DNA from: an uncultured Cohaesibacter sp.
Lineage (GTDB): Bacteria; Pseudomonadota; Alphaproteobacteria; Rhizobiales; Cohaesibacteraceae
Direction of reading: 5' to 3'
Assembly: GCF_963666525.1 (NCBI RefSeq)
Contig: NZ_OY762905.1
Span: 1,625,001 to 1,689,000, forward strand
Length of the DNA: 64,000 nucleotides
Made by a program: the position numbers and the translations under genes. Under the pieces are notes generated by a model, which did no database searches, was not told the DNA's origin, and worked only from the letters and a program-made list of their open reading frames with translations. This document shows positions 12,307-46,265 of the stretch, one piece after another (position 1 is the first letter of the stretch; each line of letters starts with the position of its first letter).

Positions 12307-12317
12307 AACGCAAGGAT

Positions 12318-17126: not shown

Positions 17127-17145
17127 CAACGATCACCAGAAACGA

Positions 17146-17243: not shown

Positions 17244-17801
17244 TCAGTTCTGGTCTTCAGGCAACACGGGCATCGGCAGGCAATCGATCCCGTCTTCCGA
17301 GAGCGACTTGATCTCGTCGATGGTTGCCTCGCCATAGATGCCGCGCTCTTCCGTCTCGCGGAAGTGCATCTTGCGGGCTTCTTCGGCAAACTTGTCACCG
17401 ACATAATCGGCATTGTCGACCACATGCTGGCGGAAGGCCCGAAGCATCTGCTGGATCTGTTGCGGGCTGGGTCTTTCCCCAGCCTCGGCACCGGAAGCAG
17501 GAGCAAGCATTGATGCGGTAGCCGGAACGACAGCTTGGCCACCAGATCCACCGGGCATCTGTCCCGGACCGACTTCACCGGGGCGGGTTGGCAGCCCCCT
17601 GCCCTGGCTCCTGTCCTGTCCCTTGTCCTGGGTACGAGTTCCCGTCACGCGTGGAGCCATCAGGGACTTGGCAATCGACGTAGAGGCGCAATAGGGGCAT
17701 TCCACCCGCCCATCACGGGTCTGTGCCTCGCAATCATCACTATTGCGAAACCAGCCTTCAAACACATGATCATGATCGCAACGCAGCGAATACTTAATCA
17801 A
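17244..17801 (-). CDS. DUF1178 family protein
   Basis: 185 aa, function unknown. The N-terminus has the family pattern CDHDHVFEGWF followed by CPYCAS, a likely zinc ribbon resembling regulatory FmdB-like domains. A Gln/Gly/Pro-rich linker follows, then a helical C-terminus containing NADYVGDKFAEEARKMHF and ERGIYGEATIDE, the conserved part of DUF1178. It is the last gene of a minus-strand run comF-grxC-nitrilase-like-DUF1178, a grouping often seen in Hyphomicrobiales. Confidence 0.88.
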   Translation of the reverse strand: MIKYSLRCDHDHVFEGWFRNSDDCEAQTRDGRVECPYCASTSIAKSLMAPRVTGTRTQDKGQDRSQGRGLPTRPGEVGPGQMPGGSGGQAVVPATASMLAPASGAEAGERPSPQQIQQMLRAFRQHVVDNADYVGDKFAEEARKMHFRETEERGIYGEATIDEIKSLSEDGIDCLPMPVLPEDQN

Positions 17802-17932
17802 GTCAGACCTCTAAGCCATATCTAGGTTACAGTGACACCCTCTTGCCATTCGGCGCGGCCGACAGAAAATGTCAGTTCGCGCACATTGGCAAGAGAAAAA
17901 ATTTCTTCTCTCTAAATATAAGCTATCTGGCG

Positions 17933-18763
17933 TCAGATTTCAAAAGCCCGATCATGCTGCAGCGACGGAATGGCCTTGCGACACCCCTCGACCCGCGTCA
18001 TGTCGATGTCGGCAGCGATGAAGCAGGGCTCTTCTCCAGCCACCGCCAAAACGGTGCCCCATGGGTCGACAATGATCGAATGCCCATAGGTCTCGCGCCC
18101 GTTTTCATGCTTGCCGCCTTGCGCAGCAGCAATCACGAAGGCGCCATTCTCGATGGCCCTCGCCCGCATCAGCACTTCCCAGTGCGCCTGCCCTGTGCGT
18201 TTGGTAAAAGCGGCAGGAATGGCCAGGATGGTGGCACCCTTCTGCTTGCAAAGCGCCCGATACAGATAAGGAAAGCGCAGATCGTAGCAGATTGTCAACC
18301 CCAAGGTGCCCCACGGTAGGATGCTGCTGACCGCCTTGAGCCCCGGCACGAAACTCGCCGACTCCCGGTAGCTTTCACCGCTTTCGAGATCCACATCGAA
18401 CATGTGGATCTTGTCATACTGGGCAGCAATGCGGCCAGTTGGTGTGATCAACAGGCTGCGATTGACTGCCTTGACCTCATCACAGGTCCGTACCAGAAAG
18501 GACATCGACCCGATGTGCAGCCAGATGTCCAGCTCCTCGGCCAACGCCTGCATACGCTTGACACCCTCGTCATCATCCTGTGCGGTGATGACATCCATCA
18601 TCGCCTTGCGGTTCATTTCCATGGTCGCGGTCTGCTCGGGCGTCTGGATATAGTCGGCTCCATCCCGCCGGGCATCTCGGATCAGACGCTCGGCTTCATC
18701 CAGATTATGCTCCGGATTGCGACCGGATCGCAGTTGAACACAGGCAGCACGAAAGGACGTCAT
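17933..18763 (-). CDS. Carbon-nitrogen hydrolase family protein (Nit1-like)
   Basis: 276 aa nitrilase-superfamily amidase. The Glu-Lys-Cys catalytic triad is visible: Glu in TPEQTATM (residue 43), Lys in QYDKIHMFD and Cys in LTICYDLRFP. Nit1/NIT2-like members repair deaminated glutathione or hydrolyse omega-amides; a link to glutathione is plausible because glutaredoxin grxC is the next gene upstream. I chose ATG 18763, preceded by GGAG, over a frame open 15 codons further upstream. Confidence 0.9.
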   Translation of the reverse strand: MTSFRAACVQLRSGRNPEHNLDEAERLIRDARRDGADYIQTPEQTATMEMNRKAMMDVITAQDDDEGVKRMQALAEELDIWLHIGSMSFLVRTCDEVKAVNRSLLITPTGRIAAQYDKIHMFDVDLESGESYRESASFVPGLKAVSSILPWGTLGLTICYDLRFPYLYRALCKQKGATILAIPAAFTKRTGQAHWEVLMRARAIENGAFVIAAAQGGKHENGRETYGHSIIVDPWGTVLAVAGEEPCFIAADIDMTRVEGCRKAIPSLQHDRAFEI

Positions 18764-32001: not shown

Positions 32002-32078
<77 letters not shown>

Positions 32079-32258
32079 ATATCTAACTGAAATTATTGGT
32101 GTTTTCAGAAGATCATTATTTCTATTGGATCGAGAAAATCGTCAGATTATGCTCAAATGTTCTGTGATTCCGTACAAATCGCGTACAGTAAACTGAATTG
32201 CCCCCACCAAAGCCGACCCAATCCCACCACTCACTAGGCGACATCTGTGGCACAATAT

Positions 32259-32288
32259 TGAATTGCCCCTAGAATTGTAGACACCTTG
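32259..32288 (+). repeat. IS3-family terminal inverted repeat, left
   Basis: Begins tgaattgcccctagaattg and ends gacaccttg. It pairs with 33530-33559, differing at four positions. Confidence 0.88.
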
Positions 32289-32293
32289 GGGCT

Positions 32294-33188
32294 TCAAGTT
32301 TTCGGTCGCTCGTATTCGGTTGGCGAGAGCATTCCGTTTGTAGCGTGTTTGCGTTTTGGATTGTAGAACATTTCGATGTAGTCGAAGATATCTCGCCTCG
32401 CATCAGCTCTTGTTTTGTATACTCGACGCCGGATGCGTTCTCTCTTGAGCAGGTTGAAAAAGCTTTCAGCAACAGCATTGTCATGGCAGTTTCCACGCCT
32501 GCTCATGCTGTGTTCCAAATTGTGCTGACGAAGGAATGCGGCCCAATCAATACTTGTGAATTGTGAGCCTTGTTCCATTGACCGGCAGGCAAGCGGAGCG
32601 CCGCCGAGAGGTGGAATGGATCAGAACCTTCTGTTTGGGCTTGCGTCGCCAGACCGCCATCAGCAGAGCTTGCAAAACAACATCTGTTGCTTGTCGCTGA
32701 CGCAATGACCATCCGACAACCTTACGGGAGAACAGGTCAATCACGACAGCCAGATAGGCAAAGCCCTCCTGCGTCTTGATATATGTGATGTCCGTTACCC
32801 AAACCATATTGGGAGCCTCGACTTCGAACTGCCGGTTCAAGTGATTGTCGACCACAAGGGACGGCTTGCCACCAGATTTGCCAGGCTTTCGCTTATAGCC
32901 AATTTGAGCCCTGATTCCTGCCAAACTGGCCAGCCGGGCAACACGGTTGGGGCAGCTGCTCTCTCCCATGTCCAGAAGATCATCATGGATCTTGCGATAG
33001 CCATAGACTTTACCACTATCATCCCAAACTTGTCGGATCAGATCCGTTTGCCTCTAGTCTTCAAGCGCTCTGTTGCTCAAGGGCTGCTTCAGCCAGGAAT
33101 AGAAACCACTGGGATGAATGGACAGACATCGGCACATAGCGCGGACTGAAAAAACCGGCCGATGCTGGGCGACGAAGGCGTACTTCAT
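32294..33188 (-). pseudogene. IS3-family transposase OrfB, inactivated
   Basis: Remains of a DDE integrase-core transposase. Reading from ATG 33188 gives a normal start (MKYAFVAQHRPVFSV, later HPSGFYSWLK). A TAG stop at 33054-33056 interrupts RALED-RQTDL. The frame then continues with KVYGYRKIHDDLLDMGESS and the first catalytic Asp in WVTDITYIK. After KVLIHS a 36-bp palindromic element (32577-32612) replaces the expected DQGSQ, removing the second Asp and shifting the frame. The tail resumes as GSQFTSIDWAAFLRQHN with the catalytic Glu region NCHDNAVAESFFN. At least two independent lesions are present, so no active product is expected. Confidence 0.9.
32577..32612. repeat. 36-bp palindromic mini-element, copy A
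   Basis: It starts attgaccggcaggc and ends gccgagaggt, with a GC-rich core that can form a short stem (gcgg/ccgc). It matches copy B at 33191-33226 in both arms while the core differs. It sits exactly where the second catalytic Asp codon of orfB should be, so it is an insertion into the transposase gene. Confidence 0.75.
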
Positions 33189-33500
33189 TCATTGACCGAC
33201 AGGCGATGCTTGCATCGCTGAGAGGTTTGCATCCTTTGCGAAGTACGCCGTTGCCTTTTTTAAGATGTCGCGCTCCTCGGTAACCCGAGCCAGTTCCTGC
33301 TTCAGGCGTCTAATCTCGGCAGCTTGCGCATCGGTCGCCTTGATCTCTAAGTTGGGTTTGCCATATCGCTTCTTCCACGCATAAAGCGAATGGCTGCTGA
33401 CACCAAGCCGCTCTGACACTTCTGCAACGGAGTACCCTCGCTCGGTGATCTGCTTGACTGCTTCAATCTTGAATTCTTCGGTGAAATGGGAATTGGGCAT
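33189..33500 (-). CDS. IS3-family transposase OrfA
   Basis: 103 aa. It has the helix-turn-helix of IS3 OrfA (FTEEFKIEAVKQITERGYSV, then SERLGVSSHSLYAWKKRYG) followed by a leucine-zipper-like helix (AAEIRRLKQELARVTEERD). A good ribosome binding site (AAGGAGA) precedes ATG 33500. The last dozen codons and the stop come from palindromic element copy B, which lies at the orfA/orfB junction, so the native end and the usual programmed frameshift site may be lost. Confidence 0.88.
   Translation of the reverse strand: MPNSHFTEEFKIEAVKQITERGYSVAEVSERLGVSSHSLYAWKKRYGKPNLEIKATDAQAAEIRRLKQELARVTEERDILKKATAYFAKDANLSAMQASPVGQ
33191..33226. repeat. 36-bp palindromic mini-element, copy B
   Basis: It starts attgaccgacaggc and ends gctgagaggt; the core gcgatgcttgcatcgc is a perfect dyad. 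It shares its outer arms with copy A. It lies at the orfA/orfB junction of the IS and encodes the OrfA C-terminus. Confidence 0.75.
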
Positions 33501-33529
33501 CGTAGTCTCCTTGCCTCATTTTTAGGGGA

Positions 33530-33753: not shown

Positions 33754-34626
33754 TCAGCAGCCCGCCAGCACGAAGCGGGAAAACCTCAAAGACTCACGCG
33801 CATCGATATCCATCTGCTCGTCTGAGGCATTGTTGCTGAGATCGCGCCAGACACGGATGTCTCGTCCGACTTCGCCACCGGTTTTGACAAATGGCTCCAT
33901 GACCACGGTTCCGTCATAGCCGATTTCCCGCAAGGCTGAGCCGATTTCATGCCAAGGGAGCATCCCCTTGCCCGGAACCCGACGATTGTTTTCTCCGGTA
34001 TGGAAGTGCCCCAGAAGCGGACCAGCCGTGCGTATCGCGGAGCTGAAGCTATCTTCCTCGATATTCATGTGGAAGGTATCCAGCATGACCTTCACGTTGG
34101 ATTTGCTGGTTTCGGTTACAAATCTAACGCCTTCTTCGGCTGTATTGATCACATGGTTCTCGAAGCGGTTGAGCACTTCGATACACAGGTTGATGTCAAG
34201 ATCTGCAGCAAAGTCAGCAAGACTGGCGATCCCTTCGACACCACGCGCCCAGTCGCCCTCCTTGTCCAGCGGTTTGTTGAAGTCAACCGGCCAATAGGAA
34301 TGCAGTGCGCCGCCAATGCTATGAATATCCAGCTTGGCGATATTGCTCAGGGTTTCCTCAAAAAATGCCCGCCCGGCCTTGCGTACGTCCGCATCCGCTG
34401 AGGACAGATTGCAGGTTTCCTTCGGTCCAAGCCCTGCGGTCATGATGATGCCGTTGTCACGAGCACAACGCCCGATGTCATCCAGATGGGCGGGGCTGAA
34501 GCTGTTGACGTGGTGAGCGGCTATTTCGATCACATCAAAACCCAGCTTCGCCACCCGCTCGATATAGGGAAGGCAGTCAGCCCCCCAGGAATTTTCCCAG
34601 TAAGAGTAGTAAATTCCAAAATTCAT
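33754..34626 (-). CDS. D-psicose (D-allulose) 3-epimerase
   Basis: 290 aa TIM-barrel sugar epimerase that inverts C3 of ketoses such as D-psicose/D-fructose and D-tagatose/D-sorbose. It follows the characterised Agrobacterium enzyme along its whole length (GIYYSYWE, VEIAAHH-like IEIAAHHV, LSNIAKLDIHSIGGALHSYW). The metal ligands fall at Glu150, Asp183, His209 and Glu244, the numbering I recall for that enzyme. The start at 34626 has GGAGG upstream. It is the last gene of the ABC transporter operon, 158 bp after the kinase gene. The natural substrate is not certain: members are promiscuous and also act on pentuloses and deoxy-ketoses. Confidence 0.92.
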   Translation of the reverse strand: MNFGIYYSYWENSWGADCLPYIERVAKLGFDVIEIAAHHVNSFSPAHLDDIGRCARDNGIIMTAGLGPKETCNLSSADADVRKAGRAFFEETLSNIAKLDIHSIGGALHSYWPVDFNKPLDKEGDWARGVEGIASLADFAADLDINLCIEVLNRFENHVINTAEEGVRFVTETSKSNVKVMLDTFHMNIEEDSFSSAIRTAGPLLGHFHTGENNRRVPGKGMLPWHEIGSALREIGYDGTVVMEPFVKTGGEVGRDIRVWRDLSNNASDEQMDIDARESLRFSRFVLAGC

Positions 34627-34784
34627 GAGTTCCTCCATGTAAGCGGCAATCTTTCGGCACAGCGCTCCGGTCCGAGCTCACTCCAATACTGGAATGCATG
34701 TTTTTCCGTGCCGCAGTTGGCCTCTTGGTATTGTTGACGAGGGCACCCCCTCAGGAATGGCATCGCCACTGCTCATTCCACTTT

Positions 34785-35432
34785 TCAAGTTGCCAGGTAG
34801 CGAATGTCCGCATCCCGGCTTTTCGCGATCACCAGATGGCCATTGGGGAGATCATTACTCTCCAGCTTGCGGGTGACTTCTTCCTCAGGAAGCCCGAAGC
34901 CTTGCCATCTGGCAGCTAACCGCCGTCGAAGCTCCGCTTCGGGAACCTCGACAAACACAGTCAGATCAAAATAGGGTGCAAGGCTGTTCCACGGACCTTG
35001 ATCAAGCAGCAGATAGTTGCCTTCCACGATGATCAGCTCGACCTCCGCCGGAATGATCCTTGCACTCCCACGGGAAATTTCCAGTTCCCGATCAAAAACC
35101 GGAACCGCAACCGCGGATTCGACCCCATCCTTGAGGCGTTGCAAGATAGAGCGCAGTCCGCCGACATCGAACGTATCTGGTGCCCCTTTCCAGGGAAGAC
35201 GATCCATTTCGCGCAAGACCGCATCATCAAAGTGGAAGCCATCCATTGGCAAGATAGAAACCTTGCCCGGATGCAGTGCGTTCAAGGCTTCAAACAAAGC
35301 CTCCGCAGTTGTGCTCTTGCCAGAGCCGGGAGCGCCGACAATGGCAAGAAAGGTTCTCTTTCCACCTTTTTCGCCCATTGCCTTTTGGGCCATGGCCACC
35401 AAATCGGAAAGGTGGTCAATTTTGCTGGTCAT
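34785..35432 (-). CDS. P-loop sugar/nucleoside kinase (FrcK/YggC-like)
   Basis: 215 aa. Walker A is GAPGSGKST (33-41). The fold is that of uridine kinase and pantothenate kinase, with the family segment PMDGFHFDDAVL and the Walker-B-like LIIVEGNYLLLD. A member of this family, FrcK, is encoded with the fructose ABC transporter frcBCA in Sinorhizobium, and here the gene again follows sugar ABC permeases. If the 3-epimerase makes D-fructose from D-psicose, this kinase could phosphorylate it; that is inference. Confidence 0.8.
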   Translation of the reverse strand: MTSKIDHLSDLVAMAQKAMGEKGGKRTFLAIVGAPGSGKSTTAEALFEALNALHPGKVSILPMDGFHFDDAVLREMDRLPWKGAPDTFDVGGLRSILQRLKDGVESAVAVPVFDRELEISRGSARIIPAEVELIIVEGNYLLLDQGPWNSLAPYFDLTVFVEVPEAELRRRLAARWQGFGLPEEEVTRKLESNDLPNGHLVIAKSRDADIRYLAT

Positions 35433-35513
35433 CGTTCAGATTCACCCACTTGTCATTGGCTCTGTTGTTTTCTCCGGCCACTCCCCTCTTCCAGGCCATG
35501 CCGGGTCTTGGAA

Positions 35514-35547
35514 CTTTCAGGGCTTCGACAGGTCGAAACCCTGAAAG
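35514..35547. other. Intra-operon hairpin between permease and kinase genes
   Basis: ctttcaggg (35514-35522) and ccctgaaag (35539-35547) form a 9-bp stem, and the inner bases (ttcga/tcgaa) extend it. It lies right after the permease stop codon in the 119-bp gap before the kinase. It may protect the upstream mRNA or reduce read-through. Confidence 0.6.
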
Positions 35548-35551
35548 CATG

Positions 35552-36559
35552 TCAACTTCTGGCTTTGTTACGCCTCAGGAAGCTTATGAACATCCTGACC
35601 AGATCCGACCGCAACACCATCACGGCAACGAGGAACAGCCCCCAGACCGCTGTTGCCAGATGTTGGTTGGCTCCAACGAGATTGAGGCCTGATGAAAGGA
35701 TCTGGAGAATGAACAGGGAAATGATCACAGGGATCACATTGCCCTTGCCACCGAATGGATCGATGCCGCCGAGGAAGCACGCCAGCACGGTGATCAGCAA
35801 CAGGGCTTCCCCATGCCCCACACGCACCGAGTTGAACCGGGCAGCCATCAGGATGCCGGCGATCGAGCACAGGAAACCTGAAAGGGCATAGATCAGAACG
35901 AGTGTGCGCTTGGTATGCAGGCCGGCATATTCGGCGGCCAGCGGGTTGGACCCGGTCATGTAGACCGAAAAGCCATGCCGTGTACGTTTCAGCAGGACAT
36001 GCCAGATAAAGGCAATGACACCGAAAAGAATCATCGGCACCGGCAACCCCAGCAATGTTCCATGCCCGATTACGCGCATGTAGTTGGGAAAGCCGGAGAT
36101 GTCGCCCCCCCGGGTCAGAAATTCCCCAAGCCCCTGCAGGAAGACCATCATGGCAAGAGAGACCAGAATCGGATGCGCTCCGACATAGGCGATGATAAAG
36201 CCGATGATGGCTCCGGCAAGCACGCCGACGCATATTGCAAACAGGCACCCCAGAATAAAGGCGCCGATCCCGGCATCCTGTCCGCCAAACTGTATGAGGG
36301 TCCAGGCAAGAGCCAGACCGGACATGTTTGCGGTAAAGACAACGGCCAGATTGAAGCCACCAGATATGATCGGGGCCAGCATGGCAAGAGTCAGAAGCCC
36401 GAGAAGTGGCATCTGAAAGCCCATGGAATCGAGGTTCGCCAGTGTCAGGAACTGTGGTGAAGCAAGGCTGAATGCGGCCGCCACGACAATCAGGATCACA
36501 ATCAGCCCCGAGGTTTCCTTATCCATCTTTTGCAAGAATGCAGGTCGCCAATTACTCAT
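35552..36559 (-). CDS. Sugar ABC transporter permease
   Basis: 335 aa inner-membrane protein of the RbsC/XylH type (BPD_transp_2) with about ten hydrophobic helices and the EAA-like region GANPLAAEYAGLHTKR-type (here GSNPLAAEYAGL). It pairs with the second permease to form the translocation channel. Its start overlaps the end of the upstream permease gene by 4 bp, indicating translational coupling. Confidence 0.92.
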   Translation of the reverse strand: MSNWRPAFLQKMDKETSGLIVILIVVAAAFSLASPQFLTLANLDSMGFQMPLLGLLTLAMLAPIISGGFNLAVVFTANMSGLALAWTLIQFGGQDAGIGAFILGCLFAICVGVLAGAIIGFIIAYVGAHPILVSLAMMVFLQGLGEFLTRGGDISGFPNYMRVIGHGTLLGLPVPMILFGVIAFIWHVLLKRTRHGFSVYMTGSNPLAAEYAGLHTKRTLVLIYALSGFLCSIAGILMAARFNSVRVGHGEALLLITVLACFLGGIDPFGGKGNVIPVIISLFILQILSSGLNLVGANQHLATAVWGLFLVAVMVLRSDLVRMFISFLRRNKARS

Positions 36560-37551
36560 TGTCCACGCTCCTGTCTACGTCCGAACAGGTTGGAAAGATC
36601 CATGTTCGAGGTGGAAATAGCGATGACAATCGCAGCACCGATGATCATCTGGAAAGCGAATGGCGAAACGCCAAGCAGGTTCAAGCCATTCTGGGTGATC
36701 GCCACGAACATGACGCCGAAGACACAGCCCAGAATGGAGCCCTTGCCACCACCCAGACGTGCCCCGCCGAGAACCACTGCGGCCAGCACATCAAGGTTCC
36801 GTGTGAAGAGCGCGTTTGGCACAACTTCCTGCACGATATTGATCTGCATGAGCCCTGCGATACCGGCCATCAGCCCCATCCAGCCAAAAGCAAGCGCCTG
36901 CATCGCGGCAATGTTGACCCCGGCACGCGCCGCCCCTTCAGGATTGTCGCCAAACGCATAGAGCTGCCGCCCGAGATTGGTCCGGCGCAACAGGAACCAG
37001 GTCGCAAAGACGCAGACCAGCATGACGCCCACAGCCAGATTGAGCTCGGCCCAGGAGCCATCCGCAGACTGATGTTCGAAAATGAAGATACGATCGGTTA
37101 CCCAGTCGGGCAGATCATAGATCGAACGGCCGCGCGTGAAGAACATCAGAAGACCGAAATAGGCATTGTAGGTCGCAATTGTCACCACGATGGTCACGAT
37201 ACGGAAGGTGTGGATCAGATACATGTTTATCAGACCCAGAAAGATGCCGATCACGCCGCAGACTAGGAAACCGAGAACCCAGTTCCCTCCCCCCATGCTG
37301 AACATCAGCTCCATGCCGACATACTGGACAACCGAGGAGGCAACGGCGAAGGAAATGTCGATGCCACCGGCAATCAGCACCACCAGAAGCCCGACCGCCC
37401 AGATCAGGTTGATCGCATTGTTGTTCAACAGGGACGCCAGATTGCTCAGCGTGAAGAACTTGTCCGTACTGAAGGCAAGACCGATGCAGATCAGCAGAAG
37501 GACCACCCCCACACGAAATTCAATCTTGTTGTCGCGAAAGAAGCTACGCAT
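36556..37551 (-). CDS. Sugar ABC transporter permease
   Basis: 331 aa, about ten membrane helices, RbsC-type, with the cytoplasmic loop motif FGDNPEGAARAGVN. It is the partner of the neighbouring permease, and its start overlaps the ATPase gene by 8 bp. Two distinct permeases rather than a homodimer match the LsrCD and RhaPQ layout. Confidence 0.92.
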   Translation of the reverse strand: MRSFFRDNKIEFRVGVVLLLICIGLAFSTDKFFTLSNLASLLNNNAINLIWAVGLLVVLIAGGIDISFAVASSVVQYVGMELMFSMGGGNWVLGFLVCGVIGIFLGLINMYLIHTFRIVTIVVTIATYNAYFGLLMFFTRGRSIYDLPDWVTDRIFIFEHQSADGSWAELNLAVGVMLVCVFATWFLLRRTNLGRQLYAFGDNPEGAARAGVNIAAMQALAFGWMGLMAGIAGLMQINIVQEVVPNALFTRNLDVLAAVVLGGARLGGGKGSILGCVFGVMFVAITQNGLNLLGVSPFAFQMIIGAAIVIAISTSNMDLSNLFGRRQERGQ

Positions 37552-39049
37552 AGATCCGCTCCTCGAGCTGGGGCACCGTCACCTCGCGCGGGTTGTATTC
37601 GCCCACGATGCGACCTTCTGCCATGTGAAGGATACGGTCGGAATGGAACATCACTTCCGTGACTTCATCGGAGATCAACAGGATGGCGAGGCCGTTTTCA
37701 GCCAGATTCTGAACGATCTTGAAAATACCCGCACGCGCACCGACATCAACACCGACCGTGGGGCTGTCCAGAATGAGCAGCCGGGGCTCCGTCGCAAGCC
37801 ACTTGGCCAGAACCACCTTCTGCTGGTTGCCGCCCGACAGGCTCGAGATGGGGTCTTCCTGATCGCCGATCTTGACGCCAAGATCCGCAATCCACTTGTC
37901 GACCAGATTCTTCTTCTTCTGATTGGACAGAAGCGGAATGCCCATGAGGAGCTTCTGCAACACGGAAATCACCGTGTTGTCGGCGATGGACTGCTTTTGC
38001 AACAAGCCCAGCGTCAGGCGGTCTTCCGACACATAGGCCAGCCCTTGACGGATCGCATCGCGGATGGATCTGGGCGAATAGGGTTTGCCGTCGAGCCGCA
38101 TCGATCCCTTTGAAGGATGGCGCATGCCCATGAGCACATGCGCAAGCTCGGTGCGCCCGGACCCGATGAGACCAGTCAGCCCCACCACTTCGCCCGCGCG
38201 AATGACAAAAGAGACATCCTCGAACTCACCGGATCGGCTCAACCCATCGATTTCGAAAACTGGGTCGGCATTGCTCATGTCTCTCGAGGAAACTTCATTC
38301 TGGATGAGCTTGCCGGTCATCAACTCGCCAAGGCGGGCCTGTGTCATGTCTTTGGTGTCGTAAACGCCCACCAGCTTGCCATCTCTGAGGACAGTTACGC
38401 GGGAAGCGATTTCCAGCACCTCGGCAAGGCGATGGCTCACGAAAACCACGGCGACGCCATCAGCAGACAGTTTGCGCACGATTTCCAGAAGTTTGTCGGT
38501 TTCCGATTTCGTCAGCGATGCCGTTGGTTCGTCCATGAAGATCAGACGCGCATCATTCATCAGCGCACGTGCGATCGCGACTACCTGTCGCTGGGCGATG
38601 GGCAACTCTTCAAGCGGGATCGTCAAGTCCAGCTCGACACCCAGACGCTTGAGAACAGCCGCCGCCCGTTCACCCATTTGCCGGGTCTGTATCGGGCGAA
38701 TGGCCAGCCCGACCATATCGTCAAACGTGATGTTTTCCTGAACACTCATATGGGGGAAAAGGGCAAGATCCTGCCAGATCACCGACACGCCCATGGCGCG
38801 GGCTCTGGTAGGGGTGATCGAACTGAGCTTCTGGTCGAACAGCTCAATGAGCTCGGCACGTTCGGGCTGATAGACACCCGTTATGACTTTTATGAGAGTG
38901 GATTTTCCGCATCCGTTCTCTCCCGCGAGGCAATGCACCTCTCCCGCCAGAACTTCAAAATTCACATTATCGAGCGCTTGAAGTCCGCCAAACGCCTTGG
39001 AGACACCTTTGAGGCGCAGAGCAAACCGCTCCGTCTTGGCATTGGTCAT
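37544..39049 (-). CDS. Sugar ABC transporter ATP-binding protein
   Basis: 501 aa with two nucleotide-binding domains, as in RbsA, XylG and LsrA. The first Walker A is GENGCGKST (43-51). The second domain has the degenerate GLIGSGRTE typical of this class. The second signature motif is LSGGNQQKV. It energises uptake through the two permeases. It is separated by 75 bp and a hairpin from the binding-protein gene. Confidence 0.94.
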   Translation of the reverse strand: MTNAKTERFALRLKGVSKAFGGLQALDNVNFEVLAGEVHCLAGENGCGKSTLIKVITGVYQPERAELIELFDQKLSSITPTRARAMGVSVIWQDLALFPHMSVQENITFDDMVGLAIRPIQTRQMGERAAAVLKRLGVELDLTIPLEELPIAQRQVVAIARALMNDARLIFMDEPTASLTKSETDKLLEIVRKLSADGVAVVFVSHRLAEVLEIASRVTVLRDGKLVGVYDTKDMTQARLGELMTGKLIQNEVSSRDMSNADPVFEIDGLSRSGEFEDVSFVIRAGEVVGLTGLIGSGRTELAHVLMGMRHPSKGSMRLDGKPYSPRSIRDAIRQGLAYVSEDRLTLGLLQKQSIADNTVISVLQKLLMGIPLLSNQKKKNLVDKWIADLGVKIGDQEDPISSLSGGNQQKVVLAKWLATEPRLLILDSPTVGVDVGARAGIFKIVQNLAENGLAILLISDEVTEVMFHSDRILHMAEGRIVGEYNPREVTVPQLEERIYA

Positions 39050-39072
39050 TTTTTTTGAACCTTCGAAAGATA

Positions 39073-39109
39073 AGGCGCGCGCGACAACTTGAAAACGGCA
39101 CGCGCGCCT
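39073..39109. other. Intra-operon hairpin between binding-protein and ATPase genes
   Basis: aggcgcgcg (39073-39081) pairs with cgcgcgcct (39101-39109), a very stable 9-bp GC stem. Such hairpins after binding-protein genes stabilise the upstream message, so that the binding protein is made in excess over the membrane complex. That role is inferred here from position. Confidence 0.7.
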
Positions 39110-39124
39110 GCTGGGAGGAGAGGT

Positions 39125-40117
39125 TTACAAGCCCATATCGGCCAGTCCGTCCACGGTATCTTTGTTCACTTCAAGCAAGTTGTCGGTGATGATGTCACGA
39201 CCTTCCACGTCCGGATGAATGACACCAAGTCCCGGAATGTCCATGCCATCTTTGACTTCTTCGCCACTGGCAAGCATCTTGCCCATGGTTACGAACACTT
39301 CGCCAGCCTGTGCCGGGTTCCACATAAAGCCACCGGTCAGGATGCCTTTGTGAACCATCTTGCGGCCCTGTCCCGGAGAGAACGGCCCAAGCACGAAGAT
39401 TTCGCCAGTCTTGCGGCGTTCCTCGATTGCGCGGGCAGCCCCGATCGGACCCTGACTACCGAAGGCAAGGAAGCCCTTGAGATCAGGATTGGCGGCAATC
39501 AGATCGAGCGCGGTGGAACGGCTGTCGTCAACGTTTTCAGCAACGCCATAGCGATCGCCGATCAGTTCGACATCCGGACGGTTTGCTTTCATCCATGCGA
39601 TGGCAGCATCAGCCCAGGCATTGTGAAGCGGCACAGTGAGAGATCCAACATAGACCGCATATTTGCCAGGGCCCTTGATGTTTTCTGACAGAAGCTTCGC
39701 GTGCGCTTCGCCAAACCCTTTTGCAGATGCCAGCTCGAAGTTCCAGTCCACATTCTTCAGGCCAGGGCCTTCGTGCGATACGACGATAATGCCTGCATCG
39801 CGAGCTTTCTTCAAAACCGGCTCCAGAGCGGACTCATCGTTCGGCACAACGCCAATCACATCGACGCCCTTGGCGATCAGATCCTCGATTGCCTGCACCT
39901 GCAGCGCCGGATCAGCGGAAACCGGGCCGATCATCTCGGCATCAACGCCAATTTCGGCAGCCCGCTTCTTGATACCCATTTCCATGGCATTGAACCAGGG
40001 GATGCCACCAATTTTCACAACGACACCCATCGTCGGATTATCAGCTGCACACACGCCACTGATCATACCAAAGGCCATGGCGGCCCCGGCGATACAACTT
40101 AAAAGTTTATTTTTCAT
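39125..40117 (-). CDS. Sugar ABC transporter substrate-binding protein
   Basis: 330 aa periplasmic protein, first gene of the operon. The signal peptide spans residues 1 to about 24 (cleavage near VCAAD). The mature part is a type I periplasmic-binding fold close to LsrB/RhaS-type proteins (MGVVVKIGGIPWFNAMEMG, GVDVIGVVPND, FLAFGSQGPIGAARAI). The ribosome binding site GGGAGGA precedes the start. The ligand is presumably a ketose or deoxysugar handled by the clustered enzymes, not necessarily autoinducer-2, although the family resemblance leaves that open. Confidence 0.92.
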   Translation of the reverse strand: MKNKLLSCIAGAAMAFGMISGVCAADNPTMGVVVKIGGIPWFNAMEMGIKKRAAEIGVDAEMIGPVSADPALQVQAIEDLIAKGVDVIGVVPNDESALEPVLKKARDAGIIVVSHEGPGLKNVDWNFELASAKGFGEAHAKLLSENIKGPGKYAVYVGSLTVPLHNAWADAAIAWMKANRPDVELIGDRYGVAENVDDSRSTALDLIAANPDLKGFLAFGSQGPIGAARAIEERRKTGEIFVLGPFSPGQGRKMVHKGILTGGFMWNPAQAGEVFVTMGKMLASGEEVKDGMDIPGLGVIHPDVEGRDIITDNLLEVNKDTVDGLADMGL

Positions 40118-40172
40118 AGCTTAATATCCTCCCAGATGTAAGCGCTGGCCTCAACTCTCCCAGAGGCCAATT

Positions 40173-40184
40173 ACAATCGATTGT
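40173..40184. promoter_or_regulatory. Probable LacI-family operator 1
   Basis: Perfect 12-bp palindrome acaatcgattgt centred on CG, as in LacI/GalR operators. It lies 55 bp upstream of the binding-protein start and 135 bp upstream of the regulator start. On the minus strand it reads tgcacaatcgattgt, matching operator 2. Confidence 0.75.
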
Positions 40185-40247
40185 GCAACTTGAACAGAGT
40201 TCGCGCCTCCACCTCCAATGGCGAGCGCACACAAAATTCTTCCTCCT

Positions 40248-40259
40248 GCACAATCGATA
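40248..40259. promoter_or_regulatory. Probable LacI-family operator 2
   Basis: tgcacaatcgat at about 40247-40258 repeats the left half and centre of operator 1 (minus strand); the right half is degenerate (atttc). The two sites are about 75 bp apart, roughly seven helical turns, which would allow looping and control of both divergent promoters. Confidence 0.65.
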
Positions 40260-40319
40260 TTTCACATCAAGCCAAAAATGCTCTAGAATGTCAACATTGT
40301 TTGTACCACAATCAGAAGT

Positions 40320-41345
40320 ATGATGATGAAGCGCACGCCGAAAAGCACGATTTATGACATTGCCCAGAAGGCGAATGCCTCACCCTCGACGGTGAGCGCA
40401 GCCCTGAACGGAACATGGAAAGCGCGCAGAATCCGCGCAGAAACAGCGGAACGAATTATAAAGATTGCTCAGGATTTCGGGTATTCAACCAACCTGCAGG
40501 CAAGAGGGCTGCGAACGGCGAAGTCCGGCCTCACCGCGTTGCTCATGCCCGACTACAATCGCTTTTTCTCCAGCCTCGCCGAGGCATTTTCTTCCAAGGT
40601 TAGACAAATGGGCCTATGCCCGGTGATTGTTTCCACAGACCGTGACCATGACGAAGAGCTGTCAACTGTGGAAAAACTCGTCTCCTACGCGATTGATTCC
40701 CTGTTCATTGCCGGGGCCTCCTGCCCTGAGGAGATCAGCCAATACTGCCAAAAGGCCCAGATCGACCATATCTTCATCGACCAGCCCTGCGCACTGGCAG
40801 CCTCCGTCACGACAGACAATGTCTGGGGGGCGCGCCAGCTCACCACCGAGATCCTCGCATCGCGCACACCATCGGGCGACCCCAGACGGGACGAACCCTA
40901 TTTCATCGGCGGAGACTGTCATCTGCCCGTGACGGCGGGGCGCATCGAGGGCTTCAGAGAGGAACTGCAGAGCCGGCTGGGCGCTTCGCATGATCACCAG
41001 ATCATCGCATCGAGTTACGATACAGACTACGCGGAGCAGGCGATCAAATCGCTCTACGGCCAGATCGGCGGCCTGCCCAGTGCTCTCTTTGTCAATTCGA
41101 TCACTTCATTTGAAGGGATCTTGCGGTTTCTTCTGACCCTTCCGGAGGAAGAGGTACGAGCCTGTTCCATGGGATGCTTCGACTACGAACCGTTTGGCGA
41201 GCTGCTACGCTTTCCCGTGCACATGATACGCCAACGCCATCGGGCCCTGATCGCCACGGCATTCGAGCTTCTGGAGACAAAAGCGGGGCCCGGCACGCTG
41301 ATAAAGGTCGAGCCCAAGCTCTTCAGTGCCCACCACAGACAATGA
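40320..41345 (+). CDS. LacI family transcriptional regulator
   Basis: 341 aa. The N-terminal helix-turn-helix and hinge are typical (STIYDIAQKANASPSTVSAA, LQARGLRTAKSGL), followed by a periplasmic-binding-like effector domain. Three consecutive ATG codons (40320-40328) make the exact start uncertain; AGAAG lies just upstream. It is divergent from the ABC operon with two operator-like palindromes between them, so it very probably represses that operon until the sugar or an intermediate binds. Confidence 0.92.
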   Translation: MMMKRTPKSTIYDIAQKANASPSTVSAALNGTWKARRIRAETAERIIKIAQDFGYSTNLQARGLRTAKSGLTALLMPDYNRFFSSLAEAFSSKVRQMGLCPVIVSTDRDHDEELSTVEKLVSYAIDSLFIAGASCPEEISQYCQKAQIDHIFIDQPCALAASVTTDNVWGARQLTTEILASRTPSGDPRRDEPYFIGGDCHLPVTAGRIEGFREELQSRLGASHDHQIIASSYDTDYAEQAIKSLYGQIGGLPSALFVNSITSFEGILRFLLTLPEEEVRACSMGCFDYEPFGELLRFPVHMIRQRHRALIATAFELLETKAGPGTLIKVEPKLFSAHHRQ

Positions 41346-41368
41346 CGGCCCGTGAGGCCATCATTGTC
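41338..41368. terminator. Hairpin between converging lacI-type and fucK genes
   Basis: gacaatgacggcc (41338-41350) pairs with ggccatcattgtc (41356-41368), a 13-bp stem with one G-U pair, overlapping the regulator's stop codon. It lacks a T-run but sits where both converging transcripts end. Confidence 0.55.
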
Positions 41369-41379
41369 GAAAAGGCAGA

Positions 41380-42795
41380 TCAAGTCTCGGGCAGAGTGAT
41401 ATGGCAGGGTGGATTGAAGGCCCGCCGCGCATCATCGGCAGACGCATAAAGGCCCGCTCCCGTCAAGGCAAACATGGAAGCGCCAAGCACCGTCGTCTCG
41501 GCTTCATCCAGTACATTGATCGGAATGCCCAGCGCATTGGCCTTGAGCTGCGTCCAGAACTGGTTTCGCGTTCCCCCGCCGACCATTGTCAGCTGCGAAG
41601 CCTTGAAATTGCCAACCTGCTCGAGAATGGACAGGCCATTCTGCAGCTTGACCACCAGACCGTTGAGCGCTGCACGAACCAGAGAGCCCCGATCCACATC
41701 CAACGACAGTCTGGACATGGTTCCATTGCCAATGAGCATGTCGGGATCGATAACCACGCCATGACAATCTTCGGGCGCTTCCATCGCTTCCCTGATCATC
41801 ACCTCATAGACATTGCCCCCGGACACACCGCTATACATCGTGCGTGCGAACCATTCGATGACGGCCGAGGCGATATATTGATAGCCCGGATTATAGTGAC
41901 CGCGCATCACATCCCACTCGCAGGTGAATGGCGTCTTGAAAATTTCGCTTGTCGGAATCTCGATGGTCGGGCAGCGGGCCATCAGGATTTCCCATGTCCC
42001 CGAGGAAAGAACAGGCTGCTCGGGCGTGGCCCCCGCACCAAAGATGGCAAACTGCGTATCATGGCCAGCTGATATCACCGGAGTACCGGCAACCAGGCCC
42101 ATCATGTCGGCGCTCTCCTTCAGCAGAGGGCCGACCACCTCGCCGGGAAAGATGGTCTCGGGAAACAGCGATTTCTGCACGCCGACAGCATCCAGTATTT
42201 CCTGGCTATAGTCCTGTGTCCTGTAATCGGTCAGTTGCGACGTGCCCACCATCGTCGCATCATTGGTAAAGCGGCCGGTCAGCAAATGCGTAAAAAGCGA
42301 GCTGACAAACATGAAATGGCTGGCACTGTCCAGCAGCTCCGGATGGTTCTCGCGAAACCAGATGAATTTGTTGAACGTGTTGAAGGAGAAGAATCCCACG
42401 CCGCTGATCGCACTGACCCGTTCAGGATTGATATAGCGATCCATATAGCTCATGGGTTCGATCGTCCTTGAGCATTTCCAGCTGATAATGGGATAGATCA
42501 ACTTGCCTGACGCATCAAGAAAGGTGCCATCGGCACCGAATGTGGTTACCGTGACCGCCCTGATCCGATCGGGAGCGACAACCTTGATGACCTCCCGGGC
42601 ACAGCGAAAGAGCTTTTCACACAGGGCCTCAAATGACCAGTAGTGCCAGTCCTCATGATCGGGATCTGGGTAGGTCGTGTTTTTCTCCGATGCGCGGGCG
42701 ATCACCTTGCCGCTCGCGCTGACCGCAATGGCCCGCACATTGGTGCTGCCGCAATCCAGCACCAACACCGCTTCTTCTCTTGTCTCGTCGTTCAT
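41380..42795 (-). CDS. fucK: L-fuculokinase
   Basis: 471 aa FGGY kinase. It phosphorylates L-fuculose at O1; the E. coli enzyme also accepts D-ribulose. Similarity to E. coli FucK runs throughout: VLDCGSTNVRAIAV (12-25), TVTTFGADG, YPIISWKC, SAGHDTQFAIFGAGA and LSSGTWEILMARC. The adenosine-site segment is MVGGGTRNQFW. It is in a minus-strand position downstream of the fucR-like gene and beside fucA. No fucose isomerase or fucose permease gene is present in the window. Confidence 0.92.
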   Translation of the reverse strand: MNDETREEAVLVLDCGSTNVRAIAVSASGKVIARASEKNTTYPDPDHEDWHYWSFEALCEKLFRCAREVIKVVAPDRIRAVTVTTFGADGTFLDASGKLIYPIISWKCSRTIEPMSYMDRYINPERVSAISGVGFFSFNTFNKFIWFRENHPELLDSASHFMFVSSLFTHLLTGRFTNDATMVGTSQLTDYRTQDYSQEILDAVGVQKSLFPETIFPGEVVGPLLKESADMMGLVAGTPVISAGHDTQFAIFGAGATPEQPVLSSGTWEILMARCPTIEIPTSEIFKTPFTCEWDVMRGHYNPGYQYIASAVIEWFARTMYSGVSGGNVYEVMIREAMEAPEDCHGVVIDPDMLIGNGTMSRLSLDVDRGSLVRAALNGLVVKLQNGLSILEQVGNFKASQLTMVGGGTRNQFWTQLKANALGIPINVLDEAETTVLGASMFALTGAGLYASADDARRAFNPPCHITLPET

Positions 42796-42862
42796 TTTCC
42801 TCCCCCTGTCTGCATCTAGCCTGCAGCTTAAAACGAATACGACAGCAGCGCCTTCTCCCCGT

Positions 42863-43588
42863 TCACGAACTTCGCTTCAAAGCTCCATGGATGCCCTTTT
42901 CATCCACCCTGCAGTGGATGCTGTTCATTTCATTGATGAGCATGAATCCGCCCCGCCCAACCTTGCTCGTATCACACAACAGGGCATGGGTATTGCTGGC
43001 TCTCAGCATGGCCTTTTTCACACCCACATTCAGGGCGTTGCTGTCCCATGCCCCGCTTTCCGGCAAAAACCCGGCGCATGAGTGGAAGCAGACGTCGGCA
43101 TGAAAATCGAGAATATTGCTCACGGTTATCGAACCGAGGAACGCCCCGTATTTTTCATAATACCGCCCACCGATGCCAATCACCTCGACATTGGATTTCT
43201 GCACCAGATCAAACACGATCCGAACCGAATTCGTCATCACGGTGAGAGGGATATCTGGCAAGGCACGGGCCAGATACCAGCAGCTTGAACTTGGATCGAG
43301 AAAGATCCTGTCGCCCTCCCGGATGAGGGGAATCGCCCTTTCCGCCATCCTGATCTTGGCATCCGCATTCTCGGATTGACGGGATCCGAAGGCCAGCACC
43401 TCATCGTTGTCAAGCAGTGAGCTGGCTCCGCCATGGGTGCGCCGCAGATAGCCGGCCTCCTCCAGCACCCGCAGATCCCGGCGGATCGTCTCGACAGCCA
43501 CACCAAACTGCTCGGACAGCTCGTTCACACTGACAGATCCAAGATGGTCGACGCGATTTACAACAGCCTTCAATCGATCAGATAACAT
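42863..43588 (-). CDS. DeoR family regulator, FucR-like
   Basis: 241 aa. An N-terminal DeoR helix-turn-helix (SVNELSEQFGVAVETIRRDL) is followed by a sugar-phosphate-sensing domain with LDPSSSCWYLARALPDIPL and SGAWDSNALN, both close to E. coli FucR. The frame is open to 43681, but ATG 43588, preceded by GAGGG, gives the normal domain start. It is upstream of and co-directional with fucK, 67 bp apart, and divergent from fucA, so it likely controls both in response to a ketose phosphate. Confidence 0.88.
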   Translation of the reverse strand: MLSDRLKAVVNRVDHLGSVSVNELSEQFGVAVETIRRDLRVLEEAGYLRRTHGGASSLLDNDEVLAFGSRQSENADAKIRMAERAIPLIREGDRIFLDPSSSCWYLARALPDIPLTVMTNSVRIVFDLVQKSNVEVIGIGGRYYEKYGAFLGSITVSNILDFHADVCFHSCAGFLPESGAWDSNALNVGVKKAMLRASNTHALLCDTSKVGRGGFMLINEMNSIHCRVDEKGIHGALKRSS

Positions 43589-43846
43589 AAAATCCCTCAA
43601 ACGGGCATATTCGGTCACAACAAACTGAATTCCGGTGACCTTCCCTGAAACAAGACTGCCAGCAATTTGAACGACATTCAATTGGAAATGCGCATATATT
43701 GGAGATAATTGTGGCTCAAATCCACGAAATCATGAATTCCTTCCGCTTCAACCAATGTGTCGCACAAACGCCAATTTCCTTGCCTCCGGTCAACGGCGGT
43801 GCTAAAACGGTCATAATCAGTCATTGGACATTTGTGGGGGGCAACC

Positions 43847-44497
43847 ATGCACGACACTCTTGAAAACCGTCAGGCAATTATCGATGCCTGCATCGAAATG
43901 AACGCAACAGGGCTCAACCAGGGCACGGCAGGCAACATAAGCCTGCGCTGTGGTGACGGCATGCTGGTGACACCATCCGGTATCGCCTATGACCAGATGA
44001 AACCTGAAGACATCGTCTATGTCAGCGCAAACGGCGAATACGGGCAAAATCAGGTGCCATCCAGCGAATGGCGCTTTCATCTCGCCTCCTATGAGACAAG
44101 GCCGGACGCCAATGCTGTGGTTCACAACCACGCCATCAACGCAACCTGCGTTTCCATCCTGAACCGGCCAATTCCTGCCATTCATTACATGGTTGCTGTC
44201 GCTGGCGGATATGATATTCCGGTCGTCGACTACGCAACCTATGGCACACAGGAGCTATCGGATCTGGTGGCAGGGGGCCTGAAAGACCGGGCCGCAATCT
44301 TGCTGCGCCATCACGGCATGATAGCGACCGGAGAAACCCTCGCGAAAGCCATGTGGCTGGCCAATGAAGTGGAAGCCCTTGCGAAAATGTATCTGAACCT
44401 GCTGCAGGTCACCGACACGCCTCCGCTGCTGTCGCACGATCAGATCGATACGGTTCTTGAAAAGATCAAAGGCTATGGTCTGCGCGAAAAGGCCTAA
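43847..44497 (+). CDS. fucA: L-fuculose-phosphate aldolase (class II)
   Basis: 216 aa. It cleaves L-fuculose 1-phosphate to dihydroxyacetone phosphate and L-lactaldehyde. It aligns end to end with E. coli FucA: GLNQGTAGNISLR, LVTPSGI, SSEWRFH, VVHNHA and RHHGMIA. The zinc ligands and base are visible as Glu74, His93, His95 and His155/156. The start at 43847 has a G-rich site upstream. It is divergent from the fucR-like gene. Confidence 0.92.
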   Translation: MHDTLENRQAIIDACIEMNATGLNQGTAGNISLRCGDGMLVTPSGIAYDQMKPEDIVYVSANGEYGQNQVPSSEWRFHLASYETRPDANAVVHNHAINATCVSILNRPIPAIHYMVAVAGGYDIPVVDYATYGTQELSDLVAGGLKDRAAILLRHHGMIATGETLAKAMWLANEVEALAKMYLNLLQVTDTPPLLSHDQIDTVLEKIKGYGLREKA

Positions 44498-44719: not shown

Positions 44720-45604
44720 TCAGAAGCCCTTCAACGTCGCCCCCAAAAGCCGCGCCAGAGCACGCACGGTCGGGTTGACATGTCTACCTGCGGCTGAGAA
44801 GCACAGACCCAACGGAATGGTCCGCGTGCTTTCCGGTCCGATGTCGAGCGGCACCAGACTGCCCTCGGCCAGATAGGGCTCGATCTCGTGGCGCGGAATA
44901 CGCCCAAATCCGATGCCACGACGGATGACCTCAATGGCACTTTCCACGGTATTCATCCGCCAGATCTTGCCTTCCTCGGCAATCGCCTCGCCCCCTTCCT
45001 CAAACCCCTGCATCTGGATGCGGGCATAGCGCGACAACAGTGTCGGGGCAATCGGTCCCGGCAGCTTGGCCAGAGGGTGGCTTTCGTGCGCCACGGTAAT
45101 CAGCGGCGCTTCGACCAGCACCTCCGACCAGAGCGTCGAGGCTCCCATCATCAGGATGGCCAGATCGAACTGTTTGCCATCCAGCGAGCCGATGGGTTGC
45201 CGCACCACTTCCCTGAGATGGATGTCAACGCCCGGATACTCGGAATTGAACCGGCCCAGTGCCTCGAACAGCAGGGACTTGGGATAGAGATAGTCCACCA
45301 CCAGACGGATGGTCGCCGGCTTGCCCTCGGCAATGGACCGACTGCGGCTCTCCAGATAGCGCAACTCGTCAATCAACGGGATGGCCTCATTGAGAAGCGC
45401 TCGCCCCGCCTCGGTCAAAACCGCCCGCCGCCCCTCGATGGTCAACAGCGGCACGTCCAGAACTTTCTGCAGTTGCCCAATGGCATAGCTGACCGAAGAC
45501 TGGCTGCGATGCAGCGCCTCGGCAGCTTTGACATAGCTACCCGTCTCGACGACAGCGCGCAAGACACTCCATTGCTCGATCGTGGAATAGGGAACGCGCT
45601 CCAT
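44720..45604 (-). CDS. LysR family transcriptional regulator
   Basis: 294 aa. The N-terminal winged helix (SVLRAVVETGSYVKAAEALH, then SQSSVSYAIGQLQ) is followed by a substrate-binding domain. The start at 45604 follows GAGGTGAT. It is divergent from padC with 142 bp between them, so it is the likely activator of phenolic acid decarboxylation. The intergenic part 45650-45700 is AT-rich and may hold the T-N11-A site, which I could not fix. Confidence 0.9.
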   Translation of the reverse strand: MERVPYSTIEQWSVLRAVVETGSYVKAAEALHRSQSSVSYAIGQLQKVLDVPLLTIEGRRAVLTEAGRALLNEAIPLIDELRYLESRSRSIAEGKPATIRLVVDYLYPKSLLFEALGRFNSEYPGVDIHLREVVRQPIGSLDGKQFDLAILMMGASTLWSEVLVEAPLITVAHESHPLAKLPGPIAPTLLSRYARIQMQGFEEGGEAIAEEGKIWRMNTVESAIEVIRRGIGFGRIPRHEIEPYLAEGSLVPLDIGPESTRTIPLGLCFSAAGRHVNPTVRALARLLGATLKGF

Positions 45605-45746
45605 GGTTATCACCTCGCTATTGGACCCGGTGACTGCCAAACATATCTAAATTTCCGATAATAAAAAGTGAAATTGAAAAATATTATTCGGTAAATCTGA
45701 TTGATAGGATCACACCAATCAGACCCATACCAACCAAGAGGCTTCC

Positions 45747-46265
45747 ATGTCCGACGAATTTGAATCCACGAAACCAGAAGAATTGACCGCTTTCGTAGGC
45801 AAGCACCTGATCTACACCTACGACAACGGTTGGCAATATGAGCTGTATGTGAAGAACGAGAAAACCATCGACTACCGCATTCACAGCGGCATGGTCGGCG
45901 GCCGCTGGGTGCGTGATCAGGAAACCCATATCGTGCGTCTGTCCGACAATGTCTTCAAGATTTCCTGGGACGAGCCGACAGGCACCTGCGTCAGCGTTGC
46001 AGTCAATCTCGCCGAACGGAAGCTGCACGGTGTAATCTTCTTCCCGCGCTGGATTGCCAACGATCCAAAGCTTACGGTCTGCTACCAGAATGACCATCTC
46101 GACCAGATGAAATCCCTGCGCGACGCTGGCCCGACCTACCCCAAGCTCGTCATAGACGAATTCGCAACCGTCACCTTCGTGGAAGACTGTGCTGCCAACG
46201 ACGAAACCGTCGTCAGTTGCGCTCCTTCCGACCTGCCAGAGGGTTACGCCGCCCGCCGCAACTAG
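45747..46265 (+). CDS. padC: Phenolic acid decarboxylase
   Basis: 172 aa, the normal PadC length. A cofactor-free beta-barrel enzyme that decarboxylates p-coumaric, ferulic or caffeic acid to vinyl phenols. The family core is clear: IYTYDNGWQYELYVKNE, TIDYRIHSGMVGGRWVRDQ and VCYQNDHLDQMKSLRDAGPT. The catalytic Tyr, Arg and Glu lie in these segments. Control by a divergent LysR differs from the PadR repressor known in Gram-positive bacteria. Confidence 0.95.
   Translation: MSDEFESTKPEELTAFVGKHLIYTYDNGWQYELYVKNEKTIDYRIHSGMVGGRWVRDQETHIVRLSDNVFKISWDEPTGTCVSVAVNLAERKLHGVIFFPRWIANDPKLTVCYQNDHLDQMKSLRDAGPTYPKLVIDEFATVTFVEDCAANDETVVSCAPSDLPEGYAARRN

Follow-up and report, generated by a model that had tools for sequence, protein, structure and literature searches.

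Ketose 3-epimerases are manufactured to produce allulose, yet to our knowledge their natural role is mostly unassigned. Ketose epimerisation in catabolism is known from the galactitol/D-altritol pathway of Agrobacterium, which contains a ketose 3-epimerase, and D-allulose (D-psicose) is used by the AlsE route, in which allulose 6-phosphate 3-epimerase acts on the 6-phosphate. Here we describe a ten-gene block at positions 33754-44497 of a 64,000-nucleotide stretch (the window) from an uncultured Cohaesibacter sp. (contig NZ_OY762905.1, positions 1,625,001 to 1,689,000), in which an L-fuculokinase (FucK) and an L-fuculose-phosphate aldolase (FucA) lie beside a sugar importer and a ketose 3-epimerase, with no L-fucose isomerase (FucI). 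We assume, with a probability of about 0.5, that the genes of the block form a single catabolic module whose substrate is a rare ketose. The most likely candidate is D-psicose, presumably the same food sugar as that of the AlsE route. This sugar is favoured because the importer is related to SupABCD, a predicted psicose carrier, and because a FucA from a different species makes D-psicose via the 1-phosphate.

The Sup locus of Sinorhizobium meliloti offers the closest comparison. In the passages concerned, diCenzo et al. (2016; PMC4961836) predict SupABCD (Smb20484-20487) to be a psicose carrier and smb20488 to convert psicose to fructose, which means that the importer-epimerase part of our block has already been predicted in print; they also report a D-psicose phenotype for the deletion mutant B163, whose removed genes are not stated in these passages. 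In strain 1021 the importer, an epimerase of a type that we call EpiX, an FGGY-family kinase and a FucA-like aldolase follow each other uninterrupted on one strand. We take this locus, whose record is without locus tags, to be SMb20484 and following on the basis of gene order and Thr27 of its binding protein. The threonine at residue 27 matches the SupA phosphosite reported in the relevant part of PMC4581636. The block shares with this locus a divergent LacI-family regulator and an importer consisting of a binding protein (71% identity to the pSymB protein), an ATPase (60%) and two permeases (62% and 60%), then a ketose 3-epimerase, and the gene order is common to both except for the P-loop kinase of the block. 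The FGGY kinase and the FucA-like aldolase downstream have the same presumed roles as FucK and FucA. The two loci differ in that the S. meliloti epimerase is of the EpiX type (PsiE, the epimerase of the block, is only 29% identical), the FGGY kinase belongs to another cluster and the aldolase is 45% identical; a search of 25 kb around the strain 1021 locus gave no match to FucK, the P-loop kinase or the FucR-like regulator. The FGGY kinase gene that follows the epimerase is uninterrupted in strain 1021, but in strain RCAM1750 (locus L119, 15468-16869) it falls into two frames.

The proteins of the block were assigned to families by NCBIfam and Pfam profile searches. Unit 1 runs leftward on the minus strand from about 40117 and encodes the SupA-type substrate-binding protein (39125..40117; PF13407), the ATPase (37544..39049; two PF00005 stretches), permease 1 (36556..37551) and permease 2 (35552..36559; both PF02653) of an ATP-binding cassette importer, a P-loop kinase of the PRK09270 group (34785..35432; NF006746, 254.5 bits, cut-off 250) and the D-psicose 3-epimerase PsiE (33754..34638; NF051856, 435.8 bits, cut-off 300), whose true start may be Met5. 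Divergent from it is the LacI-family regulator (40320..41345, plus strand; PF00356), which likely controls this unit. Unit 2 comprises FucK (41380..42795, minus strand; TIGR02628, 538.1 bits, cut-off 470.9) and a DeoR-family, FucR-like regulator (42863..43681, minus strand; PF00455 and PF08220; true start probably Met32 near 43588), both directed leftward, and the class II aldolase FucA (43832..44497, plus strand; NF005984, 319.6 bits, cut-off 264; true start probably Met6), directed rightward. FucK and PsiE both exceed equivalog cut-offs and FucA exceeds a subfamily cut-off only, its score with the equivalog TIGR01086 being 312.2 bits against a cut-off of 400.25. Scores below cut-off were also obtained for the ATPase with all NCBIfam sugar ATPase models among the matches listed, for the LacI-family regulator with the fructose/sucrose repressor TIGR02417 (147.7 bits, cut-off 389.55) and for the FucR-like regulator with its best NCBIfam model, the fucose activator NF007720 (144.4 bits, cut-off 259). 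A preliminary description of the block, made from the letters alone, had read it as fucK and fucA combined with a ketose 3-epimerase and lacking fucI. This reading was borne out by TIGR02628, NF005984, NF051856 and TIGR01089, and every gene it named is present as an open frame; it had left out the LacI and DeoR/FucR regulators.

Compared with the L-fucose pathway (fucI-fucK-fucA), the block has an L-fuculokinase above the TIGR02628 cut-off and lacks FucI as well as the mutarotase FucU. The profile search revealed no TIGR01089 match for FucI anywhere in the 5.18-Mb genome, so that a fucI gene elsewhere, which the preliminary description had considered, was not encountered with this model, and tblastn of FucI and FucU from genome G017 against the window gave no match at 1e-5. 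In a sample of 20 genomes of the family, with the genome of the window as G000, FucK (E 1e-90 or better) is found in eight. Three of them, G011, G014 and G017, have FucI and are the only genomes of the sample with full TIGR01089 matches; their operons read fucA-deoR-fucI-fucK-fucU and are accompanied by a different importer as well as by genes of the aldo-keto reductase and lactonase-like types. FucK, FucA, the FucR-like regulator, the divergent orientation of fucA and similar operator sites are common to these operons and the block, which differs from them by the absence of fucI and fucU, by its importer and by the additional epimerase and P-loop kinase.

The other five genomes with FucK (G000, G013, G004, G015 and G009) have no FucI genome-wide and no FucU at the locus; tblastn of the G017 FucU gave no match in the loci of the last four either. 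In all five, a Sup-type importer, LacI, FucK, DeoR and FucA are adjacent and combined with a ketose 3-epimerase, which is PsiE in two loci and EpiX in three, and the two halves of the block, whose co-occurrence in relatives had been proposed as a check, therefore do occur together within the genus. Four of the five loci also contain the P-loop kinase; in that of G009 it was not found. FucK, FucR and FucA are 66-97% identical in the four further genomes. Only G004 and G015 have flanking genes in common, apart from a single gene of G009 that matches one of the window at 33%, which indicates that the core is kept in four neighbourhoods. The FucK of G013 is 97% identical to that of the window, yet no flanking gene is common to both within the stretch compared, which suggests that the entire block moved together. 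One genus thus includes close relatives that have the isomerase in their fucose gene set and others that lack it.

PsiE is identical to the D-psicose 3-epimerase of A. tumefaciens in 209 of 289 residues (72%) and matches PDB entry 2hk0 with 486.5 bits. All seven active-site residues are kept (E150, E156, D183, H186, H209, R215 and E244), of which we take E156, H186 and R215 to be further active-site residues of D-psicose 3-epimerase. E150, D183, H209 and E244 are named as active-site residues in the pertinent passages of PMC3869271, according to which the A. tumefaciens enzyme, the closest to PsiE, was renamed owing to its high D-psicose specificity. EpiX aligns from end to end with the solved structure 7dz2 of a D-tagatose 3-epimerase (512 bits) and retains the seven active-site residues, so that a different gene still supplies the epimerase role. 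Both subfamilies meet in one recurring import module: in three of ten hand-picked plasmid loci (Neorhizobium NCHU2750, A. larrymoorei and Sinorhizobium B11), EpiX, P-loop kinase and PsiE are consecutive. These rhizobial operons share the importer, the P-loop kinase and PsiE with the block and differ from it in having two epimerases and a chain without FGGY kinase or FucA. The type found in the window (PsiE only) and that of G004 (EpiX only) might be read as losses from such an EpiX-P-loop-PsiE operon.

P-loop kinase relatives accompany 3-epimerases in other loci. On a plasmid of Bartonella sp. HY328 (locus L225, 7052-10674), genes for a short-chain dehydrogenase/reductase oxidoreductase, PsiE, a P-loop-type kinase and transaldolase are consecutive, perhaps a route from a polyol via psicose to fructose 6-phosphate. 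As PsiE is followed there by such a kinase and transaldolase, our guess for the substrate of the P-loop kinase is D-fructose.

FucA of the block (276 bits to PDB entry 1fua) retains E73, H92, H94 and H155 of the Escherichia coli enzyme, which we take to be its catalytic residues. Residue 131, Phe in E. coli and Tyr here, was considered as a sign of a polar aldehyde and dismissed, as the fucI-linked FucA of the genus also has Tyr. In the parts of PMC3869271 and PMC8467252 dealing with synthesis, FucA of Thermus thermophilus is used to make D-psicose from dihydroxyacetone phosphate and glyceraldehyde via the 1-phosphate, and a FucA step on psicose-1-phosphate is therefore chemically sound.

To see the importer in a wider context, we analyzed its surroundings in other genomes. 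The binding protein has matches at E 1e-60 in 45 of 397 genomes of the order, in 51 places, of which 39 were studied (five in the genus, those of genomes G270 and G338, and 32 order-level loci) and 12 left out. Among the 32 order-level loci, 21 have an epimerase match and nine a FucA-like gene (identity 42% or higher), which in eight of these nine is accompanied by an FGGY kinase of cluster c11, a cluster other than that of FucK. The genome of the window contains six class II aldolase (PF00596) matches, so that, provided other genomes resemble it, such a gene would be expected in about 2% of random 20-kb stretches; compared with this expectation, nine of 32 loci point to an association of importer and FucA-like gene beyond chance. 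A scan of named genomes, of which the best 80 of 574 candidates were taken and which shares some genomes with the order-level set, gave an epimerase in 73 of the 75 loci that could be judged. The 68 named loci with at least 4 kb downstream comprise 15 with c11 and a FucA-like gene, one with FucK and FucA (L139), two with c11 only, 13 with a pentulose-type FGGY kinase, 14 with a P-loop kinase only and 23 with none of these.

One-strand runs, defined by a common strand and gaps below 500 bases, of importer, EpiX, P-loop kinase, c11 kinase and FucA-like aldolase were found in L085, L092, L159 and L163 (two of the 32 order-level and two of the 80 named loci). The same run without P-loop kinase occurs in L117, L119, L155, L185 and L199 (three of the 80 named and two of the ten plasmid loci, one of the latter being L119 with its split kinase), and five more order-level loci have an importer-c11-FucA run. 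The combination of roles is therefore not unique, since importer, 3-epimerase, FGGY kinase and FucA-like aldolase are joined in single runs in other bacteria; the kinases and aldolases of these runs belong to other clusters or have lower identity to those of the window. A FucK-type kinase accompanies this importer, among the loci examined, only in this genus, G270, G338 and L139, and the last is probably from the same genome as G270. The preliminary description had regarded the combination as possibly new. For the kinase-aldolase arm no description was found in the literature searched; a search for 3-epimerase, fucK and fucA as one pathway gave no such title or abstract opening among the matches listed in Creative Commons-licensed literature, with most subscription papers outside it. 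Among the matches listed, the import module is mostly found in Alphaproteobacteria and in a few Gammaproteobacteria. The latter include Vibrio penaeicida (L202 and L204) and Granulosicoccus (L142 and L146), which also carry importer and EpiX, with the FucA-like aldolase and c11 kinase of Granulosicoccus on the opposite strand.

The gap between the binding protein and LacI genes contains two palindromic sites that are conserved across the five fucI-less genomes. Putative LacI operator 1 (40169..40188) is an imperfect copy of TTGCACAATCGATTGTGCAA and putative operator 2 (40246..40265) was located by gap alignment and motif scan, both without an assigned strand. Genome-wide, the half site TGCACAATCGAT has two exact copies, and this gap contains both. 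A LacI operator common to both units was looked for by motif scan and none was found in the gap between FucR and FucA, which has its own repeated sites that recur in the fucI-less genomes. Two putative DeoR/FucR sites (43602..43617 and 43808..43823, plus strand) were derived from a 10-genome alignment of this gap and a motif scan. FucR-type sites are also present in the gaps of the fucI-linked operons, by scan in L036 and L038 and by eye in the alignment in L037.

How could these parts work together? By our own reasoning, D-psicose, L-tagatose, D-ribulose and L-fuculose have a common arrangement at C3-C4 that is made and broken by FucA, and their respective 3-epimers are D-fructose, L-sorbose, D-xylulose and 6-deoxy-L-sorbose. 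We propose that the LacI-controlled SupABCD-type importer takes up the ketose and that the 3-epimerase would connect (3S,4R) ketoses such as D-fructose with (3R,4R) ketoses such as D-psicose. In one arm (A), PsiE would convert D-psicose to D-fructose, followed by phosphorylation by the P-loop kinase. In the other (B), FucK would phosphorylate the (3R,4R) ketose at C1, giving psicose-1-phosphate if the sugar is D-psicose, and FucA would then split the C1-phosphate into dihydroxyacetone phosphate and an aldehyde, which would be D-glyceraldehyde in this case. Both arms may run together. FucK, FucR and FucA would be the fucose-operon versions of the genus, retained in a lineage without fucI and fucU and with importer and epimerase alongside, and FucK-FucA would occupy the slot held in other bacteria by an unrelated FGGY kinase and a FucA-like aldolase. 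For a rare hexulose such as D-allulose, the specific sequence of C1 phosphorylation by FucK and cleavage by FucA to dihydroxyacetone phosphate and glyceraldehyde, with the 3-epimerase feeding or draining the pool, is a tentative proposal with odds somewhat below even. If true, this would be a natural job for the industrial allulose epimerases and a case of a rewired fucose operon, in which the isomerase was presumably swapped for epimerase and importer. The role of the epimerase and a C1-phosphate route for allulose can be tested directly in tractable strains, for example S. meliloti 1021.

Several observations weigh against a single psicose module. Arm A alone could serve D-psicose, which implies that FucK-FucA may serve another sugar. 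PsiE (E 1e-60 or better) is found in four of the 20 family genomes, G000, G013, G010 and G011; in the last two it lies beside a P-loop kinase (52% and 50% identity) and away from FucK and this importer, G010 being without FucK at our threshold and the fuc operon of G011 being far from its PsiE gene, and therefore PsiE does not need FucK. Likewise, the aldolase is optional to the importer, since 52 of the 68 named loci have no FucA-like gene, and the 25 kb of S. meliloti 1021 contain no match to the P-loop kinase. Genomes G270 and G338 have the importer beside FucK-FucA with no epimerase within 20 kb, and in both of them FucI occupies a second locus together with a separate FucA-like gene. FucA residues cannot separate psicose-1-phosphate from fuculose-1-phosphate. 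In a 13-row FucK tree the importer-linked and fucI-linked kinases fall on opposite sides of one branch, which is weakly supported (61/85; 57% of bootstrap trees). Each unit has a regulator and operators of its own, and the FucR-type sites resemble those of fucose operons; this division would allow for two pathways that run separately. Regulators of the DeoR type often respond to a phosphorylated intermediate. FucR control of the second step of one pathway would fit, and two independent pathways fit equally. Furthermore, SupA is described as potassium-induced and required at high potassium in the passages on it in PMC4581636. As to the ligand, the binding protein (AlphaFold model with a mean predicted local distance difference test of 89.9) has 3d02 and 9i1m (AauA with its substrate) as its closest solved structures, and their titles name no sugar.

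It is conceivable, if rather unlikely, that two ordinary pathways are simply neighbours: importer, PsiE and P-loop kinase would use D-psicose via D-fructose, and FucK-FucA another ketose, L-fuculose or D-ribulose, that arises elsewhere in the cell or enters by another importer. The separate regulators and operators, the three of ten plasmid loci with an importer-EpiX-P-loop-PsiE chain lacking FGGY kinase and aldolase, and the second-locus FucI of G270 and G338 are in line with this, whereas the adjacency of the halves in five genomes and four neighbourhoods, the lack of FucI (TIGR01089) in this genome and the occurrence of the same roles in one-strand runs elsewhere speak for one module. The single pathway of the preliminary description is accordingly favoured by the adjacency and called into question by the separate regulators and by G270 and G338. 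Its best guess for the sugar fared less well. Import of 6-deoxy-L-sorbose or D-xylulose, with epimerisation to L-fuculose or D-ribulose as the substrate of FucK-FucA, or as a close variant L-sorbose to L-tagatose, involves by our reasoning the same stereochemistry (3S,4R to 3R,4R). It agrees with a FucK above the L-fuculokinase cut-off, and for the pentulose with XylB-type or pentulose-type kinases near some importer relatives; FucA also yields L-tagatose from L-glyceraldehyde in the relevant passages of PMC3869271. Nevertheless we consider it quite improbable, as the importer is of the SupABCD type, a family tied to D-psicose in the passages of PMC4961836, and PsiE is closest (72%) to the enzyme renamed for D-psicose specificity in those of PMC3869271. 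A decayed fucose locus, in which fucI was lost and FucK-FucA are relics beside an unrelated importer, would explain the missing fucI and fucU and the IS3-type transposase remnant adjoining the block. It is hardly credible in view of open FucK, FucR and FucA frames, whose counterparts in four other genomes without fucI are 66-97% identical, the kept catalytic residues of FucA and the recurrence of the FucR-type sites in these genomes. All in all, the arrangement noted in the preliminary description is real and unusual, and the interpretation given there points the right way, with D-psicose more likely than the sugars it named.

A D-apiose pathway was considered, since an importer with a triosephosphate isomerase-barrel isomerase, an FGGY kinase and a class II aldolase is similar to what apiose clusters contain, and was rejected: the epimerases match D-tagatose/D-psicose 3-epimerases, the apiose-type genes of the genome sit elsewhere, none of the ten proteins of the block matches a transketolase in NCBIfam or Pfam, and apulose phosphate, by our reasoning, lacks the C3-C4 retro-aldol arrangement required by FucA. 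The missing isomerase was also sought with the looser model PF02952, which gave four matches in the genome, two of them above the cut-off; the best of the four, a FucI-like gene at C1:2802323, was examined further. It was rejected, as it adjoins AptAB relatives and a different kinase, and its sole NCBIfam match is sulfoquinovose isomerase with 102.6 bits against a cut-off of 700. This second sugar locus (L005, G000:C1:2793000-2812500, positions 9300-18724) contains AptA/AptB-type transketolase halves of 63% and 57% identity to the apiose cluster of E. coli SE15, an FGGY kinase of 39% and a binding protein of 47%. The FucI-related isomerase beside them may be a D-apiose isomerase from a different family.

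The psiE end of the block is adjoined, at 32002-33520 of the window, by a tRNA-Arg(ccg) gene followed by a broken IS3-family transposase region with a remnant open reading frame at 32547-32969 (NF033516, 127.8 bits, below the cut-off of 160). Beside FucA, at 44720-46265, a LysR regulator and a phenolic acid decarboxylase (PF05870, 280.8 bits) are divergently oriented, and we take this pair as lying outside the sugar block.

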